Assembly: GCA_003559735.1 (NCBI GenBank)
Contig: PWKN01000176.1
Coordinates: forward strand, 1-49,729
Length of the DNA: 49,729 nt
Source of the DNA: Bacteroidales bacterium
Lineage (GTDB): Bacteria > Bacteroidota > Bacteroidia > Bacteroidales > UBA7960
Direction of reading: 5' to 3'
Under the pieces are notes generated by a model, which was given only the letters and a program-made list of their open reading frames with translations, had not been told where the DNA came from and made no database searches. Shown piece after piece: positions 23,745-46,455 of this stretch (its first letter is position 1; the number at the start of each line of letters is the position of its first letter). The position numbers and the translations under genes are program-made.

Positions 23745-24956
23745 TTACCCATTATATCTTCTGGCATTGTTTCTTTCCAGGATCATTCGCAGTGGTCCGG
23801 CCGGAGACCTGAACAGGTAACAGAACATGACAGCGGCAATGATATATGGTTTATATCCTGCTTCACGGTATGTTTGCAGGCGAGCCTGTTCAAAAACTGA
23901 TGCATCCACTTCCCCCCTGTGACATGAAACACCTGAAATGTCGGCAGGCAGGCAATGCAGATACAACGCGCTTCCGTTATCTGTCACAGAGTGAAGACGC
24001 TGGTCGTATTCCCAGTGAATATGTTCTTTGTTGTTGTTCAGACATTCCCGTTCCAGGTCACGGAGTCTGACGGTTTCGCCACTGTTCAGCAACTCCGTGC
24101 GTTTTTTCATTATGTGCAGCGGGGCCCAGCTTTTGGGATAGACAATGTGGGCGCCTGTCATGGCCTCTTCCATGGAATGGAAGATCTGCAGAGACCCGCC
24201 ACTGCTTTTGGCCTGTTGCTGCGACATCTCCACAATTTCGGGAACCAGGTCGTACCCTTCGGGATAAGAGAGGGAAACATCCATCCCAAGTCTTGTCATC
24301 AGTGCAATGATCCCTTGCGGAACAGACAGGGGTTTTCCATAGCTTGGGGAGTATGCCCAGCTCATTGCAAACTTTTTACCACGCAATGCATCCAGCGAGC
24401 CAAATACCTCTTGAAGGTGCATCAGGTCGGCCATTGTCTGCGTCGGATGGTCCATGTCGCACTGCAGGTTGATGATCCCCGGCCTGGCAGGCAGTATCCC
24501 GTTTGAATGGCTGTCGTCAATAGCGGCTGCCAGCTCACGCATATACCGGTTCCCTTCTCCCAGGTACTGATCATCCCTGATGCCAATAAAATCTGTCAGA
24601 AATGAGATCATTGCCGCTGTTTCCCTTACGGTTTCACCATGAGCAATCTGTGACTTTTCTTCATCAAGCTCCTGTAAGCCAAATCCCAGCAAATTGCAGG
24701 CAGAAGCAAACGCAAATCGTGTACGTGTTGACTTGTCACGAAAAATAGAGACCGCCAGTCCGGAATCGGCAATCCTCGGTGATATATTGCCCTCACGCAT
24801 TTGCTTTAGTACGGATGCCACCTCCAGGATCATACGCAGATCATCTTCCCCTTTTTCCCAGGTCACCAAAAAGTCTTTTGAGAACAAACCCGAATGGTTG
24901 GTACTGATCGCTTCAATCCCGGACAACAATGCATTTAAGGTCTTATGTTCATTCAT
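23745..24956 (-). CDS. ygeW: YgeW-type knotted carbamoyltransferase
   Basis: 403 residues, longer than an ornithine carbamoyltransferase. It has carbamoyl-phosphate motifs FRDKSTRTRF (72-81), MDHPTQT (168-174) and LHCLP (333-337), and the YgeW-type FAFASACNLLGF and SWAYSPSYGKPLSVPQ segments. In E. coli and many anaerobes ygeW lies in the ygeW-ygeX-ygeY-hyuA-ygfK-ssnA purine/ureide cluster. YgeW does not use aspartate or ornithine in reported work, and its substrate is not firmly established. ygeY lies 133 bp upstream on the same strand, with xdhC beyond it. The knotted SOTCase/AOTCase arginine enzymes are the main alternative, but the ygeY neighbour favours YgeW. Confidence 0.88.
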   Translation of the reverse strand: MNEHKTLNALLSGIEAISTNHSGLFSKDFLVTWEKGEDDLRMILEVASVLKQMREGNISPRIADSGLAVSIFRDKSTRTRFAFASACNLLGFGLQELDEEKSQIAHGETVRETAAMISFLTDFIGIRDDQYLGEGNRYMRELAAAIDDSHSNGILPARPGIINLQCDMDHPTQTMADLMHLQEVFGSLDALRGKKFAMSWAYSPSYGKPLSVPQGIIALMTRLGMDVSLSYPEGYDLVPEIVEMSQQQAKSSGGSLQIFHSMEEAMTGAHIVYPKSWAPLHIMKKRTELLNSGETVRLRDLERECLNNNKEHIHWEYDQRLHSVTDNGSALYLHCLPADISGVSCHRGEVDASVFEQARLQTYREAGYKPYIIAAVMFCYLFRSPAGPLRMILERNNARRYNG

Positions 24957-25089
24957 GGGTAGTGTCGTTTGTTTTGTTGCTGACTTTCCCCCCTGACCAG
25001 GCCAGTATCTTCACCTTCATAAAAACGTGCTCTTCTGAAAAATATTTGACACAACAGAATGCCTGTTTTTTTAAGGGTGTTCTATATTG

Positions 25090-26274
25090 TCAGACTGTGC
25101 AGGCCAGTGCGGCATAAAATGCGGCGGCTTTTTCAAGGTGGTCTGTCGCCACTTTTTCATTCGGTGCATGGGCCAGCTCCTCATTTCCGGGTCCAAAACC
25201 CAACACAGGAATTCCATATATCCCGTGTATGGTAACACCATTGGTGGAAAAAGTCCAGTTGCCAATGGTCGGCGGGTGTCCGTATAACTCTTTGAACACA
25301 TTCACGCCACATTGGATCACCTCGTGTGATTCGGGCATTTGCCAGGTCGGATAATACTTTTCCATACCGTAGGTAAGACCCGTAAATGATTTTCCCATGT
25401 ACACAGGTACCTCCACACTTGCCTTCATGTCGCTGATCAGCAACCTGATCTCCTCCATTGCTGATTCTTTTGTTTCACCCAGGGTTAAACGTCTGTCGAG
25501 ATGCAACTGTGCAAAGTCGGCTACGGCGCACAAAGACGGACTTTTTGATATGATCTCCGAGACCGTGATGGATCCCTTGCCCAGGGAAGGATCCGTTTTC
25601 AGCCTTTTGTTGAGTTTTTCAATCTCCAATGCAACGGACGATGCCATATATATTGCATTTTTGCCACGTTCAGGCGCAGATCCATGACATGACAGTCCGT
25701 AGAAACGGACCTCCATTTCCATTCTGCCTCTCTGGCCACGGTATATATTCAGGCTTGTGGGCTCGGTGAGGACCACCACGTCGGGTCGAAGTCCCTCTTC
25801 CTCAACAAGATACTTCCAGCATAACCCATCACAATCTTCTTCAATGACGCTGCCGACAAAGTAGACGGACATATCCCTGTCAAAAACCAGTTCTTTCAGT
25901 ATGCGGCCAGCTGTGACCAGGGCGGCGGCTCCCCCCTTCTGGTCAGCCGTTCCCCTTCCGTGGACATACCCATTTGATATGGCTCCCCCCAGGGGATCAA
26001 ATTCCCAATCGTCCGTATTGCCTGTGTCGACTGTGTCGATATGGGCATCAAAGGCAAGGATCCTGTTCCCATTGCCAATTCTTCCTATGACATTACCGAG
26101 TTTGTCCATCCGTACTTCATCAAAACCAGCACTTTGCATCTGACGGATCAATTCAAGTTGTGCCTGTTCTTCATGTAAGCTCAACGACTTGCATTGTACA
26201 AGTTTCGATAGATTATTGGCTGTATAATCAAGATATTGCCTCGAAAGTCGTTTGATCTCAGCGAAATGTTCCAT
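25090..26274 (-). CDS. ygeY: YgeY-type M20 metallohydrolase
   Basis: 394-residue M20 peptidase-family hydrolase. The metal ligands lie in DAHIDTVD (76-83), GTADQKGG (109-115, bridging Asp) and IEEDCDG (144-150). The C-terminal half has HGSAPERGKNAIY and an HAPNEKV segment with the last His ligand. The overall sequence fits the YgeY 'selenium metabolism-linked hydrolase' group, which deamidates or hydrolyses intermediates of anaerobic purine or ureide breakdown. It pairs with ygeW. A perfect -7 box is found at 26341-26348 in the gap to the divergent xdhC. Confidence 0.88.
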   Translation of the reverse strand: MEHFAEIKRLSRQYLDYTANNLSKLVQCKSLSLHEEQAQLELIRQMQSAGFDEVRMDKLGNVIGRIGNGNRILAFDAHIDTVDTGNTDDWEFDPLGGAISNGYVHGRGTADQKGGAAALVTAGRILKELVFDRDMSVYFVGSVIEEDCDGLCWKYLVEEEGLRPDVVVLTEPTSLNIYRGQRGRMEMEVRFYGLSCHGSAPERGKNAIYMASSVALEIEKLNKRLKTDPSLGKGSITVSEIISKSPSLCAVADFAQLHLDRRLTLGETKESAMEEIRLLISDMKASVEVPVYMGKSFTGLTYGMEKYYPTWQMPESHEVIQCGVNVFKELYGHPPTIGNWTFSTNGVTIHGIYGIPVLGFGPGNEELAHAPNEKVATDHLEKAAAFYAALACTV

Positions 26275-26340
26275 GTTGCCTGCAGATTGGTTGATGGATC
26301 AAAACAGTTGATCAGAAGAAGCCTGATCTTTGTATATTTA

Positions 26341-26348
26341 CAAAAATA
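26341..26348 (-). promoter_or_regulatory. Candidate -7 box for ygeY-ygeW (TATTTTTG)
   Basis: This is a perfect TAnnTTTG element on the minus strand, 67 bp ahead of the ygeY ATG. TTTG occurs 15 and 22 bp further upstream, neither at the usual 19-21 bp spacing. The 103-bp gap also serves the divergent xdhC, for which no clean box was found. Confidence 0.4.
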
Positions 26349-26377
26349 TTGTTTAACTGCGAACAAAACACAAAAAA

Positions 26378-27328
26378 ATGCAAATATGGACATTTATTCA
26401 GGGAAAGCTATCGGTTGGTGACCCTGTAATGCTCATTGCAGTCGCGCACACAAAAGGAAGCAGTCCGGGGAAAAAAGGGTTTAAAATGGTTGTTGCTTCT
26501 GACGGGACGGTTGAGGGCTCCGTGGGTGGTGGACTAATGGAGTACCAGGTGGTTGAACTGGCAAGGGAAAGGTTAAAAAAAGGAGGGGGTTCTCCATTTT
26601 TGAAAAGGCTGGTCCATTCATCTGATGCTGAAGAGGATGCTTCCGGGTTGATCTGTGAGGGTGAACAGCAACTGGCGTTTGTCCCCCTTCATCCCGGCGA
26701 CCAGGATGGAATTACCCTCCTTGCCGGTTGCGTTGATGATGGGAATGAGGGGACGCTGGTGTTGTCGCCGGGCGGTTTTGCATTTCACCGGAAGCCAGGG
26801 GAGGAAGTGCCTGGTGAGGGGCTGACCATAACCGGTCAGGACTGGCAGTACGTTGAACGGATGATGCCAGTAAATACAATGTATGTATTTGGTGGCGGAC
26901 ACATCAGTGTTCCCTTGAGTCAGCTCGGGCGAATGCTTGGCTTCAGGGTGGTGGTGCTGGACGACAGGCAGGACCTTGAGACAATGAAAAACAACCCCTA
27001 TGCCCATGAAAAAAGGCGGATCAACTACCTGAACGCTGCCGCTTGCATCCATCATCCTGAAAACTCATATGCGGCGATCATGACGGTATCGCACGAGACC
27101 GATCAGCATATACTGGAGCAATTGCTGCCATTGCCATTGAAATACCTGGGGATGATCGGGAGCAATGCCAAAATAAAAAAGATATTTTCCAATCTTCTTG
27201 ATAAGGGATTTGGTCAGGATGGGTTAAACCGGGTTGATGCCCCGATGGGGTTGGACATCAACAGCCGGACACCGGCAGAAATTGCCGTTAGCATTTATTC
27301 TTTGATCATTCAAAGGAAAAATGCCTGA
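26378..27328 (+). CDS. XdhC/CoxI-family molybdenum-hydroxylase maturation factor
   Basis: 316 residues. XdhC proteins bind molybdenum cofactor and help load and sulfurate it in xanthine dehydrogenase-type enzymes. The N-terminal XdhC_CoxI domain has TKGSSPGKKGFKM and GSVGGGLMEY (47-56), and LICEG at 91-95. The Rossmann-like C-terminal domain has YVFGGGHISVPL (169-180), VVLDDRQ and MIGSNAKIKKI. In many homologues the SVGGG segment is SxGGC; here the Cys position is Leu53. No molybdenum hydroxylase is encoded in the window. The position next to ygeY-ygeW suggests purine metabolism. It converges with the atp operon. Confidence 0.85.
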   Translation: MQIWTFIQGKLSVGDPVMLIAVAHTKGSSPGKKGFKMVVASDGTVEGSVGGGLMEYQVVELARERLKKGGGSPFLKRLVHSSDAEEDASGLICEGEQQLAFVPLHPGDQDGITLLAGCVDDGNEGTLVLSPGGFAFHRKPGEEVPGEGLTITGQDWQYVERMMPVNTMYVFGGGHISVPLSQLGRMLGFRVVVLDDRQDLETMKNNPYAHEKRRINYLNAAACIHHPENSYAAIMTVSHETDQHILEQLLPLPLKYLGMIGSNAKIKKIFSNLLDKGFGQDGLNRVDAPMGLDINSRTPAEIAVSIYSLIIQRKNA

Positions 27329-42681: not shown

Positions 42682-45600
42682 TTAAATGGTTTTTTGTGGC
42701 AAATGTTTTTCAAAATATTCGTCGAAACGTTTTACCAGCAGGTCGCAACCGTACCGGTAAAGTCTACGATGGTTATCATGGTCTGTGTACCGGAATGAAC
42801 AATGATCCTTTTCGCGGGCAGTGCCATCCATGACAGAGGCCACTTCCAGCATCACATCTGCAGGTGTTTCATACCCGGCCTGCAAACCAAAAGATTGATG
42901 CAGCTTAACGAGCTGCTTAAAGGAAGAGTCTTCCAGCGGGCTGTCCATGACCGCATCAAACTGCTGAATATACTTCTGTGTGTTGGTAAAGCTGCCCCCT
43001 GTTTCGACGGGAAAGGATGCAGGCAGCACCAGGTCGGCCAGGCTGGCCGTCTCGCTCATAAAATAGTCCTGTACCACGAGAAAGTCAGTGTTTTGCAGGA
43101 CTTTTTTGGTGTCGTTGCCCCGGATTGAACAACCCACCGGGTCTTCTCCAAAAACAAAGGCATTCTTTACTTGTCCGTCTCTCAGCAGGCTCCATTGTTC
43201 CTGAACCACATGTTCAGGCAGGTGGGCAGTTTGCCAGACCGATCTCAACTGCGACAAAACCGGCTCCCCGTTTATCTGTCCGCCTCCCGGAGCCATAGAA
43301 GCACAGCCCCCCATATCATACAAACCCTGGGCGTTGTTTTTTTCTTTGAGTGGCAGCAATCCACTGCCCTTTTTGCCACATTTTCCGGTAACATGGCAAA
43401 GGTTACGCAACTCGTGGCACGTATTGGCTGATATATTCTTTTCAGAGAACATCAGTACTGCCTGGGCTTCATTATTAAATGCTTCAGCAAATCCTGTCAC
43501 ATGAGTTATGCTCGCGCCCGACTTTTTTACAAGAAACCCGAAATCCTCCTGCAATGCATGTTCCCTGTAAGAATCGAATCCGGAGCAGTGATCATCAATA
43601 AACACCCTGTTCTCCATCCCTTTTTGAAGAATATGGTGGATGGCTGCCTTTACAAAATAATAAGACGACCCGATCATTGTGGTTTCGGTGGCTTTGTGGC
43701 GCATTCGGTTGTCTTCCCTGGTCGTGATGAGCACGATGGGGGTCCCCGCCCTGAAGTGCCTGTTGAAGGCGTAGTAACCAGGCACAGCATTCTCGTAGTT
43801 TATTTCGCTGTCAAGCACAAAAATTTTGTTTGCCTGTGCAAGGTCCTGTATGGGAACAGTGCAATTACTGTTTGCCATATATCCGGAGCCCCGTTCCATA
43901 TAATGAAAGCTGCTCACATTGTTCGTTTTTACTCCTGCCCTGGCCAGTTTCTGGATCAGGTATATCTCTTCGTTTGTCAGGCGCGCACCGGCATAGAATG
44001 CATTCTCATCGGGTTTTGCCTTTTGTATTTTTTTTGTGATGAGGTCATACGCTTCCCCGAATGACACCGGCTCAAATAAATTGTCCGCCTTTTTCAGAAG
44101 GGGAGTGGTGATCCGGGTATCATCATTCAGGTAATGGTAACCGAACTTGGCGTACCGGCAGATGCTTCCGTCCGTATTGATCAACCCCTTGTTTCCCGTA
44201 ACCCTTGCCACATAACCCTCCTTATGGTGCATATTGATCTGGCAACCCACAGAGCAGTAGTTGCATATGGAGCTGACCGTTTCCAGTTTAACCGGCACGG
44301 TTTTGAAAGGTACATTTTCGGTGATGGCGCCTGTTGGACAGGTATCAATGCACAAGCCGCACGATTCACAATCGGTGTCACGCAACCTGCCGTCCATGCT
44401 TGGAGCCACATAGGTATTGAATCCCCTGTTTACCAGTCCGAGTGCATTGGCCCCGTTTAATTCCGAACAAATCCGGATACAGCGCGAGCAAAGGATGCAT
44501 TTGTTGTTGTCTGCTTCAACAAAGGGATGGTCAAAGTCAACCAGGTATTTTTTATACGCACCCCCAAAACGTTTTTGTTCGGCCTGGTAGTCGTCAGCGT
44601 ATCTTTTCAGGTCGCAGGTGTGGAGTTCCGTACAACCGCACTCGAGACAGCGCATTGTTTCGTTGATGGCCGCCTCCTCACTGTAGCCAAGCTCCACCTC
44701 GTCAAAATTGTTGCGTTTCAGGGGATCCAGCGTGGGCATTTCCTCGCGGAGTTGTTTTGGGAATGACTGCTCATAGTCATTCTTATCCTGTTTTTCGAAA
44801 TTCTCTTTCTTGCTGAGAAATGGGACGTGATTGGGTGTGATCTCTTTGCCGTGGAGGTATTTGTCACAGCTTTCAGCTGCAATCTTTCCCTGTGCTATGG
44901 CTTCGATCAGCGTTGCGGGACCCGTTACGCCATCGCCGCAGGCAAACACGCTTTCGATGGAGGTTTGCAAGGTGCCAGGAGCGGCATCAATGTCGCCCCA
45001 CCGGTTTAACTTCAATTGTTCACCTGAGTGTTCGCTGATGTCATCCATGAAATCCGCCACTGTCTTCTGACCAATGGCTGCCAGGATGTAATCCAGTTTT
45101 ACGTCAAACTCCGACCCTTCAATTTTCACCGGCCTGCGGCGTCCGGATGCATCGGGTGCACCCAGCTCCATTCGGATACACGTTAGCGAGCTCAGGTTGC
45201 CATCTGCATCTTTGTTCACCCTGGCAGGCGCTGTCAGGAACATGTACTGTACACCCTCGAGCTTTGACTCATGGATCTCAATCGGGTTGGCCGGCATCTC
45301 CTTTTCCGTACGCCGGTAAATGACGATCACGTCGGTGGCTCCACAGCGCCGTGCCGTCCGGCAACAATCCATCGCAGTGTTCCCGCCACCGATCACTGCC
45401 ACAGTCTTACCGGTAAAATCATATTTCTGTCCGGTCATCTCCATGTTTCGCAGGAAGTCGATGCCGCTGAAGATGTTTCCTGCATCATCGTTTTCACAAC
45501 CAATGCCGGTCCCTTTTTGGGAGCCTATTGCAAGAATGGTTGCATCATATTGCTGTCTGATCTCTTTATAGCTAAGGTTGTCACCCAGCCGGCGGTTATA

Positions 45601-46386
45601 GTGGATCCTGACCCCCAGGTTTGTGATCCCTTCAATCTCTTTTTCGATCACATCGTTGGGCAGGCGGTAAGGAGGGATGCCGTATCGGAGCATGCCGCCT
45701 GCGTGTGGGTTCGCTTCATATATGTCGACACCATGTCCTTCTCTGGCCAGAAAGTAGGCCGCTGTAAGTCCACCGGGACCCGACCCGATCACGGCCACTT
45801 TTTTGCCTGTGGGGGGAGAAACTTCAGGCATGAACCGGTCATCCGAAAACATATCAATATCTGCGGTATGCCTTTTCAGGTAGTCTATTCCCACCCCTGT
45901 CCCCTCCAGCAGGGTGCGGCGGCAAACCAATTCGCAGGGACGTACGCATACCCTTCCGCAGATTGCCGGCAGTGGATTGGTCTCCTTGATCAGCTCCACG
46001 GCTTCGCGATGCTTGCCTTTGCTGATCATAGAGATGTAGCCCTGCACGTCCACTCCGGCAGGACATTCTTCCTGGCAGGGTGGTGCGCAGTCGGCATAGT
46101 GGTTGCTCACAAGCAGCTCAAGGGCAAACCTGCGCGACTGGCGGACCCGCTTGTTGTCGGTTTCAATACGCATCCCCTCGGTGATCCTGGTGGAACATGC
46201 CGGCTGCAGTCCGCGCATCCCCTCCACTTCCACTACACATAAGTAACAGGAGGAGAATGGGACCAGGCGATCATCATTGCACAGTGTGGGAATTTCGATG
46301 TTCAGGCGCCGTGCCAGTTCAAGAATTGTTTCACCCCTGTTGCCCTGTACAATCTTATTGTTGATGATGATATTGAGTTTGCTCAT
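42682..46386 (-). CDS. GltD/NuoG chimera: 2Fe-2S, glutamate-synthase-like flavoprotein, ferredoxin and molybdopterin-fold domains
   Basis: 1234 residues from MSKLNIIINN. (1) Residues 1-75: NuoG/HydA-type [2Fe-2S] domain with Cys36, 47, 50 and 64. (2) 90-510: GltD/NfnB-like flavoprotein: Fe-S Cys100, 104, 108 and Cys143, 147, 151, 155; FAD motif GSGPGG (201-206); NAD(P) motif GGGNTAMD (333-340); second FAD motif ACGDGVTGP (482-490). (3) Cys580, 583, 585, 591. (4) 630-683: two [4Fe-4S] ferredoxin motifs. (5) 708-743: Cys708, 711, 715, 743 of the molybdopterin Fe4S4 domain. (6) ~757-1150: molybdopterin-oxidoreductase fold. No Cys or in-frame TGA is found near 825-835, where formate dehydrogenases have Cys/Sec, so domain 6 may be inactive, as in NuoG. 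Downstream partner of HydB- and NuoE-like subunits. Substrates are not known. Confidence 0.85.
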   Translation of the reverse strand: MSKLNIIINNKIVQGNRGETILELARRLNIEIPTLCNDDRLVPFSSCYLCVVEVEGMRGLQPACSTRITEGMRIETDNKRVRQSRRFALELLVSNHYADCAPPCQEECPAGVDVQGYISMISKGKHREAVELIKETNPLPAICGRVCVRPCELVCRRTLLEGTGVGIDYLKRHTADIDMFSDDRFMPEVSPPTGKKVAVIGSGPGGLTAAYFLAREGHGVDIYEANPHAGGMLRYGIPPYRLPNDVIEKEIEGITNLGVRIHYNRRLGDNLSYKEIRQQYDATILAIGSQKGTGIGCENDDAGNIFSGIDFLRNMEMTGQKYDFTGKTVAVIGGGNTAMDCCRTARRCGATDVIVIYRRTEKEMPANPIEIHESKLEGVQYMFLTAPARVNKDADGNLSSLTCIRMELGAPDASGRRRPVKIEGSEFDVKLDYILAAIGQKTVADFMDDISEHSGEQLKLNRWGDIDAAPGTLQTSIESVFACGDGVTGPATLIEAIAQGKIAAESCDKYLHGKEITPNHVPFLSKKENFEKQDKNDYEQSFPKQLREEMPTLDPLKRNNFDEVELGYSEEAAINETMRCLECGCTELHTCDLKRYADDYQAEQKRFGGAYKKYLVDFDHPFVEADNNKCILCSRCIRICSELNGANALGLVNRGFNTYVAPSMDGRLRDTDCESCGLCIDTCPTGAITENVPFKTVPVKLETVSSICNYCSVGCQINMHHKEGYVARVTGNKGLINTDGSICRYAKFGYHYLNDDTRITTPLLKKADNLFEPVSFGEAYDLITKKIQKAKPDENAFYAGARLTNEEIYLIQKLARAGVKTNNVSSFHYMERGSGYMANSNCTVPIQDLAQANKIFVLDSEINYENAVPGYYAFNRHFRAGTPIVLITTREDNRMRHKATETTMIGSSYYFVKAAIHHILQKGMENRVFIDDHCSGFDSYREHALQEDFGFLVKKSGASITHVTGFAEAFNNEAQAVLMFSEKNISANTCHELRNLCHVTGKCGKKGSGLLPLKEKNNAQGLYDMGGCASMAPGGGQINGEPVLSQLRSVWQTAHLPEHVVQEQWSLLRDGQVKNAFVFGEDPVGCSIRGNDTKKVLQNTDFLVVQDYFMSETASLADLVLPASFPVETGGSFTNTQKYIQQFDAVMDSPLEDSSFKQLVKLHQSFGLQAGYETPADVMLEVASVMDGTAREKDHCSFRYTDHDNHRRLYRYGCDLLVKRFDEYFEKHLPQKTI

Positions 46387-46455
46387 ATGTATTTTGTTTT
46401 CTTGCATGCATTGCTGCACGTAACCTGTTATAACTGATCCTGAACCCGGTTTTTG

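Follow-up and report, generated by a model that had tools for sequence, protein, structure and literature searches.

A ygeW-ygeY-XdhC locus of a Bacteroidales genome as a probable block of a dispersed reductive urate pathway

The ygeW-ygeY-XdhC locus

The stretch of DNA analysed here (the window) comprises 49,729 nucleotides of contig PWKN01000176.1 from a Bacteroidales bacterium. At positions 23745 to 27328 it carries three genes: ygeW and ygeY, whose Escherichia coli counterparts act in the reductive degradation of urate, and a divergent gene of the XdhC family. We report here on the place of this short locus in that pathway, for whose other steps we find candidate genes on further contigs of the same genome. 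The features of the locus are:

23745..24956, minus strand: ygeW, knotted carbamoyltransferase, 403 amino acids (aa); above the NF005538 and TIGR03316 cut-offs
25090..26274, minus strand: ygeY, hydrolase of the M20 family for the second ureido group, 394 aa; above the NF009555 and TIGR03526 cut-offs
26275..26377, no strand: intergenic gap of 103 bases between ygeY and the XdhC-family gene, from open reading frame (ORF) coordinates
26378..27328, plus strand: XdhC-family gene, 316 aa; above the PF02625 and PF13478 cut-offs

On the minus strand, ygeY sits 133 bases upstream of ygeW, and the XdhC-family gene points away from both; to judge from the ORF coordinates, the gap between them is presumably a shared promoter region. 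In profile hidden Markov model (HMM) searches, ygeW matches NF005538 with 598 bits (cut-off 453) and TIGR03316 with 565.5 bits (cut-off 500), compared with only 118.8 bits for the N-acetylornithine carbamoyltransferase model. The ygeY product, which contains the Pfam domains Peptidase_M20 and M20_dimer, scores 499 bits with NF009555 (cut-off 321) and 477 bits with TIGR03526 (cut-off 321.5), compared with 177 bits for the generic DapE-ArgE model. On these margins we reject ygeW and ygeY as arginine-pathway enzymes, and with that a grouping with acetyl- or succinylornithine carbamoyltransferases and arginine deacylases, which a previous reading made from the sequence alone (the sequence-only reading) had named as the competing placement. 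Identity to the E. coli proteins is 57% over 395 aa for YgeW and 48% over 389 aa for YgeY; the STRTR and HCLP stretches of E. coli YgeW are retained in the window's ygeW, whose nearest solved chain by sequence comparison is 3q98. The other two carbamoyltransferases of the genome, of which the N-terminal pieces were scanned, are an ornithine-type enzyme on contig C19 and an aspartate-type enzyme on C92.

The third gene encodes both Pfam XdhC domains, but its product misses the cut-offs of both NCBIfam models, NF045664 (212 of 350 bits) and TIGR02964 (118 of 161.6 bits), and we therefore limit its label to the XdhC family. As a factor for maturation or insertion, it probably serves the molybdenum hydroxylases of the genome.

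A blastp comparison of all window ORFs of at least 80 aa with the E. coli xdhA-uacT region and with the genome's own pathway proteins gave no other urate-cluster member above 60 bits in the window; the one additional match was a fusion protein. Thus the ORFs, the HMM cut-offs and this search bear out the sequence-only reading in that ygeW, ygeY and the divergent XdhC-family gene stand here without other cluster genes. The fusion (42685-46455, minus strand; 1257 aa) combines a part like formate dehydrogenase alpha with a GltD-like NAD(P)-binding oxidoreductase part. YgfK positions 426-888 are matched by its first half as well, and similar proteins are present in panel genomes (described below) both with and without YgeW.

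Pathway genes on other contigs and in other genomes

The reductive urate pathway has already been published, with the E. coli and Clostridioides difficile enzymes assayed. According to that report, an XDH-type enzyme (XdhD) reduces urate to 2,8-dioxopurine (yanthine), which is dearomatised by YgfK; YgfK and SsnA lead to ureidomethyl-hydantoin, and HyuA, in a ring opening with SsnA, to 2,3-diureidopropionate (PMC12507026). E. coli YgeW then phosphorolyses 2,3-diureidopropionate to a monoureido compound and carbamoyl phosphate, YgeY strips the other carbamoyl group to give 2,3-diaminopropionate, and YgeX converts this to pyruvate and ammonia (PMC12507026). Two studies from 2025 differ on which ureido group is removed first (according to the commentary PMC12990295).

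The genome that holds the window is a metagenome-assembled genome (MAG; G000) of 3.66 Mb in 295 contigs, 95.95% complete. Family searches of its contigs located relatives of XDH/XdhA, YgfK, SsnA and HyuA on C87, C269, C160 and C22, in agreement with the sequence-only suggestion that the other genes lie elsewhere. C87 carries, in this order, a threonine-synthase-like pyridoxal phosphate (PLP) enzyme, an 894-aa XDH (840.5 bits to TIGR03311, cut-off 830.45) and an SsnA relative. At its edge, C269 has an N-terminal piece of YgfK (209.9 bits, model positions 2-177); it also holds a MocA-like gene and an XdhA-like gene (749 aa), the latter two labels drawn from our own reading together with domain and BLAST hits. 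The other YgfK piece starts at the edge of C160 (656.6 bits, positions 142-988), and each piece falls short of the 835-bit cut-off because the gene is cut by contig ends. At the end of C22, next to genes that we read as rnf-like, lies the C-terminal half of HyuA (245 aa), and C19 carries a carbamate kinase above its cut-off alongside the ornithine-type carbamoyltransferase. With relatives on C87, C269, C160, C22 and C19, we regard the pathway not as missing from this genome but as dispersed in it.

Other amidohydrolases were set aside. The best PF01979 match of the genome, on C293, was rejected as SsnA since a TRZ/ATZ-type model fits it better (460 bits, under that model's cut-off, compared with 206-210 for SsnA). 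Two further proteins, on C96 and C142, were put aside as HyuA candidates; Pfam gives just 'amidohydrolase' for them, and we read them as dihydroorotase-type and imidazolonepropionase-type, respectively. SelD was not found above its cut-off in this 95.95% complete MAG (best match to a SelD model 69.6 bits, cut-off 125), so the name of TIGR03311, which denotes selenium dependence, is no proof of such dependence here. Directly past ssnA on C87 (L016:5419-9952) lie genes that we read as acyl-CoA carboxylase-like, enoyl-CoA hydratase-like and biotin carboxylase-like (two ORFs).

Taken together, the window would supply YgeW and YgeY, C87 SsnA, C269 and C160 YgfK, and C22 HyuA. Maturation of the molybdenum enzymes of C87 and C269 is probably the task of the XdhC-family protein, and the carbamoyl phosphate released by YgeW would feed the C19 carbamate kinase for ATP. 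Conversion of diaminopropionate to pyruvate and ammonia, which ends the pathway, would fall to the PLP enzyme of C87, perhaps with a second one on C209. All of these activities are predicted for this organism, as is the ATP yield. Because every step has a candidate gene, the reduced pathway that the sequence-only reading had entertained is left unsupported.

The same genes accompany YgeW across the order. YgeW exceeds its cut-off in 45 of the 198 Bacteroidales genomes searched, and we compared these 45 with 35 genomes without YgeW, each at least 95% complete and hand-picked, roughly in handle order, as a subset of the genomes at that level of completeness. One genome with a YgeW fragment below the cut-off (G114) was assigned to neither group. 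The counts from this panel of 80 take no account of relatedness, and its genomes come from many families. Full-length YgfK, for which the threshold of E <1e-190 was set after a gap between full-length and shared-domain matches had been seen, is present in 44 of the 45 genomes with YgeW and in 1 of the 35 without. The corresponding counts are 43 and 1 for HyuA, 43 and 2 for SsnA (one of the two weak), 40 and 1 for the threonine-synthase-like PLP enzyme, and 41 and 2 for the second PLP enzyme. Some of the misses among the 45 fall in incomplete genomes (G171, 85%; G084, 77%), others do not (G012, 99%, for SsnA; G174, 97%, for HyuA). The YgfK, SsnA and HyuA searches share one exception, G036 (L149, L150), which has these three genes and both PLP genes without a YgeW above the cut-off. 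It looks like a pathway holder whose YgeW escaped detection, with either an assembly gap or a lineage that uses a different enzyme at the YgeW step as the cause.

Arrangement of the locus in relatives

Patterns of one query led to 112 relatives, of which we kept the best 80 as named loci for comparison with the window locus. All 80 are from MAGs, mostly of Bacteroidota with six titled Chlorobiota, and they are therefore uninformative on other phyla; nor are they independent of the panel, as the HyuA query, taken from locus L051, recurs at 100% identity in a panel genome. At least 8 kb of sequence flanks ygeW on each side in 26 of the loci, and 19 of these 26 hold at least one further pathway gene. 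The XdhC-ygeY-ygeW block is joined to hyuA in 10 of the 80, and several of these ten extend further, with ssnA, XDH and both PLP genes. The window shows a different arrangement, in which the block is flanked by an ATP-synthase operon and an AI-2E transporter (ATP synthase / XdhC / ygeY / ygeW / AI-2E transporter). Ten other loci of the 80 share it, and from these we conclude that the apart position of ygeY-ygeW is a lineage trait and no assembly accident.

Two gene families recur beside the blocks. In eight of the ten window-type loci, ygeW is separated from the AI-2E transporter by an amidase gene, which is not present in the window. This amidase (family 14, PF01425; for example L139:9419-11131, and 10 other loci) directly follows ygeW in close relatives and reaches no listed NCBIfam cut-off; its substrate could be a ureido or amide intermediate. 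In many clusters, a conserved, apparent membrane protein of about 213 aa stands between ssnA and hyuA (family 7; 24 loci besides L144:15264-15890 and L145:14848-15474). For two members Pfam gives nothing at E 0.01, and one has only a marginal NCBIfam match to L-lactate permease (E 0.003). We presume a resemblance to YgjV-type proteins.

The physical separation of the pair raises the question whether YgeW and YgeY have a distinct use, as the sequence-only reading had put forward, for example in scavenging external albizziin or other ureido amino acids independently of purines. Ten of the 80 named loci show the pair apart, none with another pathway gene in the sequence covered (a few kb for some), and the extra amidase in eight of the ten would suit a pair that stands alone. 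Such a pair should, however, often occur in genomes that lack the other pathway genes, and YgeW is found with YgfK, SsnA and HyuA in 43 to 44 of 45. This co-occurrence leaves a distinct use without support, and we consider it very improbable.

The loci also bear on the XdhC-family gene, which might serve an unrelated molybdenum enzyme and lie beside ygeY by accident. Its scores below the two named XdhC cut-offs, and the occurrence of the family in just 28 of the 80 loci, would fit such an accident. On the other hand, 26 of those 28 loci have the gene divergent from ygeY-ygeW, ten of them with the block joined to hyuA. Moreover, the E. coli cluster also contains a gene annotated as XdhC-CoxI family, yqeB, and the two PF02738 proteins of the genome, on C87 and C269, are both pathway-linked. 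An accidental position therefore seems to us improbable.

Several observations weigh against assigning the locus to a complete pathway. The best matches of the SsnA relative on C87 are SsnA models, yet it stays below their cut-offs (351 of 444 bits for NF005540, 315.6 of 455.5 for TIGR03314). YgfK is known only as two unjoined pieces at contig ends, and the HyuA half, whose gene is likewise cut, reaches 289.5 of 393 bits with its best match, TIGR02033. Identity to E. coli is only 26% for the XDH (to XdhD) and 28% for the XdhA-like protein (to XdhA), so that either might be the one that reduces urate. Seven of the 26 well-flanked loci have no further pathway gene nearby. Finally, as this is a MAG, the assignment of contigs to the genome depends on binning, and at least one contig, C243, looks foreign, with 68% GC compared with 46-48% in the window. 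This contig (L015; 4.6 kb, with amidohydrolase-like and peptide ABC transporter-like genes) is probably a binning contaminant; the window contig itself is syntenic with relatives. A genus relative, G146, has its second PLP gene split over the ends of two contigs (C43 and C75), a hint that in this genus the block with ygfK may adjoin the one with XDH and ssnA. On balance, we hold it highly probable that the window locus contributes one block to a reductive, oxygen-free pathway for the degradation of urate and purines that is complete, though dispersed over the genome.

The last step and the comparison with known systems

Among the genes whose presence the sequence-only reading had left to a search of the genome, relatives of hyuA, ygfK and ssnA and a molybdenum hydroxylase were found, but canonical ygeX was not: TIGR03528 has no match in the genome at E 1e-20. 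Across the panel, this model matches in just 4 of the 80 genomes, in none above its cut-off; all four matches exceed the cut-off of NF006058 (diaminopropionate ammonia-lyase). Both PLP enzymes occur together in 37 of the 45 genomes with YgeW, and YgeX is absent from all 37 and present in four of the remaining eight (G026, G073, G089 and G129), with a Fisher p of 0.0005 that is uncorrected, ignores shared ancestry and belongs to a comparison chosen after the pattern had been seen. In G026, which is without the threonine-synthase-like gene, YgfK is followed by the second PLP enzyme and then by YgeX, whereas in G032, G097, G158, G138 and G172 the threonine-synthase-like gene takes the place after the second PLP enzyme. 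Going by these sequence patterns, YgeX has likely been replaced in this lineage by one or both of the PLP enzymes.

The two candidates differ in kind. The C87 protein scores 175.9 bits with the threonine synthase model TIGR00260 (cut-off 167.1), has four conserved N-terminal cysteines and aligns with YgeX over just 160 aa, at 23% identity; threonine synthases lead its NCBIfam matches, and the best 25 of 41 include no diaminopropionate ammonia-lyase model. Its predicted structure (mean predicted local distance difference test score, pLDDT, 86.4) is closest to threonine synthases (2c2b, Z 40.1, 2.3 Å over 368 residues), with the E. coli diaminopropionate ammonia-lyase 4d9m in 46th place (Z 30.2, 3.0 Å over 307). 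The second PLP enzyme, with its own copy on C209, is about 500 aa long and has a modest Pfam PALP match, beyond which lies a conserved C-terminal part. Its leading NCBIfam match is cysteine synthase (TIGR01139, 113 of 351 bits), with cystathionine beta-synthase (TIGR01137) at 78 of 510, both far below the cut-offs. Profile and fold comparisons (mean pLDDT 79.8) place it closest to cysteine synthase, beta-cyanoalanine synthase and cystathionine beta-synthase. For both models, the fold searches confirm only PLP fold-type II and do not indicate the substrate.

These likenesses leave room for another division of labour, in which the C87 protein is a second threonine synthase and the last step falls to the CysK/CBS-like PLP enzyme alone or to a general serine/threonine dehydratase. 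The C87 protein does pass the TIGR00260 cut-off and does fold most like threonine synthases, and two genomes that hold YgeX, G026 and G129, retain the second PLP enzyme. Against this, C93 carries a separate thrC, of which a 296-aa piece passes the cut-off with 237 bits. This speaks against the C87 protein as the housekeeping threonine synthase, a role that we disfavour. Moreover, genes of the C87 type track YgeW through the panel and directly precede XDH and SsnA in clusters, and in G026 a diaminopropionate ammonia-lyase occupies the very position after the second PLP enzyme that they hold elsewhere. We thus regard a second threonine synthase as unlikely and conclude that the diaminopropionate step is most likely carried out by the threonine-synthase-like enzyme of C87, alone or with the C209 enzyme, an activity we infer.

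The exchange is less neat than the panel counts suggest. The YgeX genes of G073 and G129 lie in stretches without other cluster genes, and that of G089 lies at a contig edge. YgeX coexists with the threonine-synthase-like gene in G089 and with the second PLP gene in G026 and G129, and four genomes (G044, G057, G084 and G191; two of them less than 90% complete) lack one PLP gene and YgeX as well. A wider proposal, that in Bacteroidales and some other Bacteroidota YgeX has given way to a two-enzyme PLP module whose members jointly break down 2,3-diaminopropionate, we put at even chances. The members might, for example, divide the work into beta-replacement or deamination and alpha,beta-elimination, or each act on one stereoisomer.

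Compared with the E. coli cluster (xdhD-ygfM, ygfK, ssnA, hyuA, ygeW, ygeY, ygeX and yqeA, as given in PMC12507026), the genome holds relatives of YgeW, YgeY, YgfK, SsnA, HyuA (as a C-terminal piece) and the XDH-type enzyme, together with a carbamate kinase. Unlike that cluster, its genes are spread over several contigs, with two other PLP enzymes in place of canonical YgeX, an SsnA only 32% identical to that of E. coli (over 402 aa), a distant XDH and no SelD above the cut-off. In C. difficile, UacX stands in for YgfK and UacY for YgeW while the overall chemistry is shared, a precedent for single-enzyme swaps (PMC12507026); our lineage, by contrast, retains YgfK and YgeW and appears to swap YgeX. 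YgeX (TIGR03528/NF006058) and both candidate replacements have the PLP fold-type II family PF00291 in common. The C87 enzyme resembles threonine synthase (TIGR00260) in sequence and predicted fold, and differs from it in its urate-gene context, its co-occurrence with YgeW and the presence of a separate thrC in the genome. For the second PLP enzyme, cysteine synthase and cystathionine beta-synthase are the best family matches and the nearest solved folds; unlike them, it scores far under the cut-offs, has a length of about 500 aa and is bound to urate gene clusters.

To judge from the 45 genomes with YgeW, a sizeable share of one order within the Bacteroidota has the anaerobic urate pathway. 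The distribution survey in the main text of PMC12507026 makes no mention of Bacteroidota, possibly because SsnA of the type seen here falls below the family cut-off. Judged against that main text, the variant ending of the pathway, the swap of YgeX, looks like the new part, the pathway itself being known. Single-cell genomes from the cockroach gut are described in PMC10266427 as without uricase, which has no bearing on the reductive pathway. More generally, clusters that are broken up in a lineage, or over the contigs of a MAG, may mimic reduced pathways. For the lineage itself, the likely swap of YgeX offers a case of non-orthologous replacement, with two named genes, at a step whose enzyme is otherwise known.

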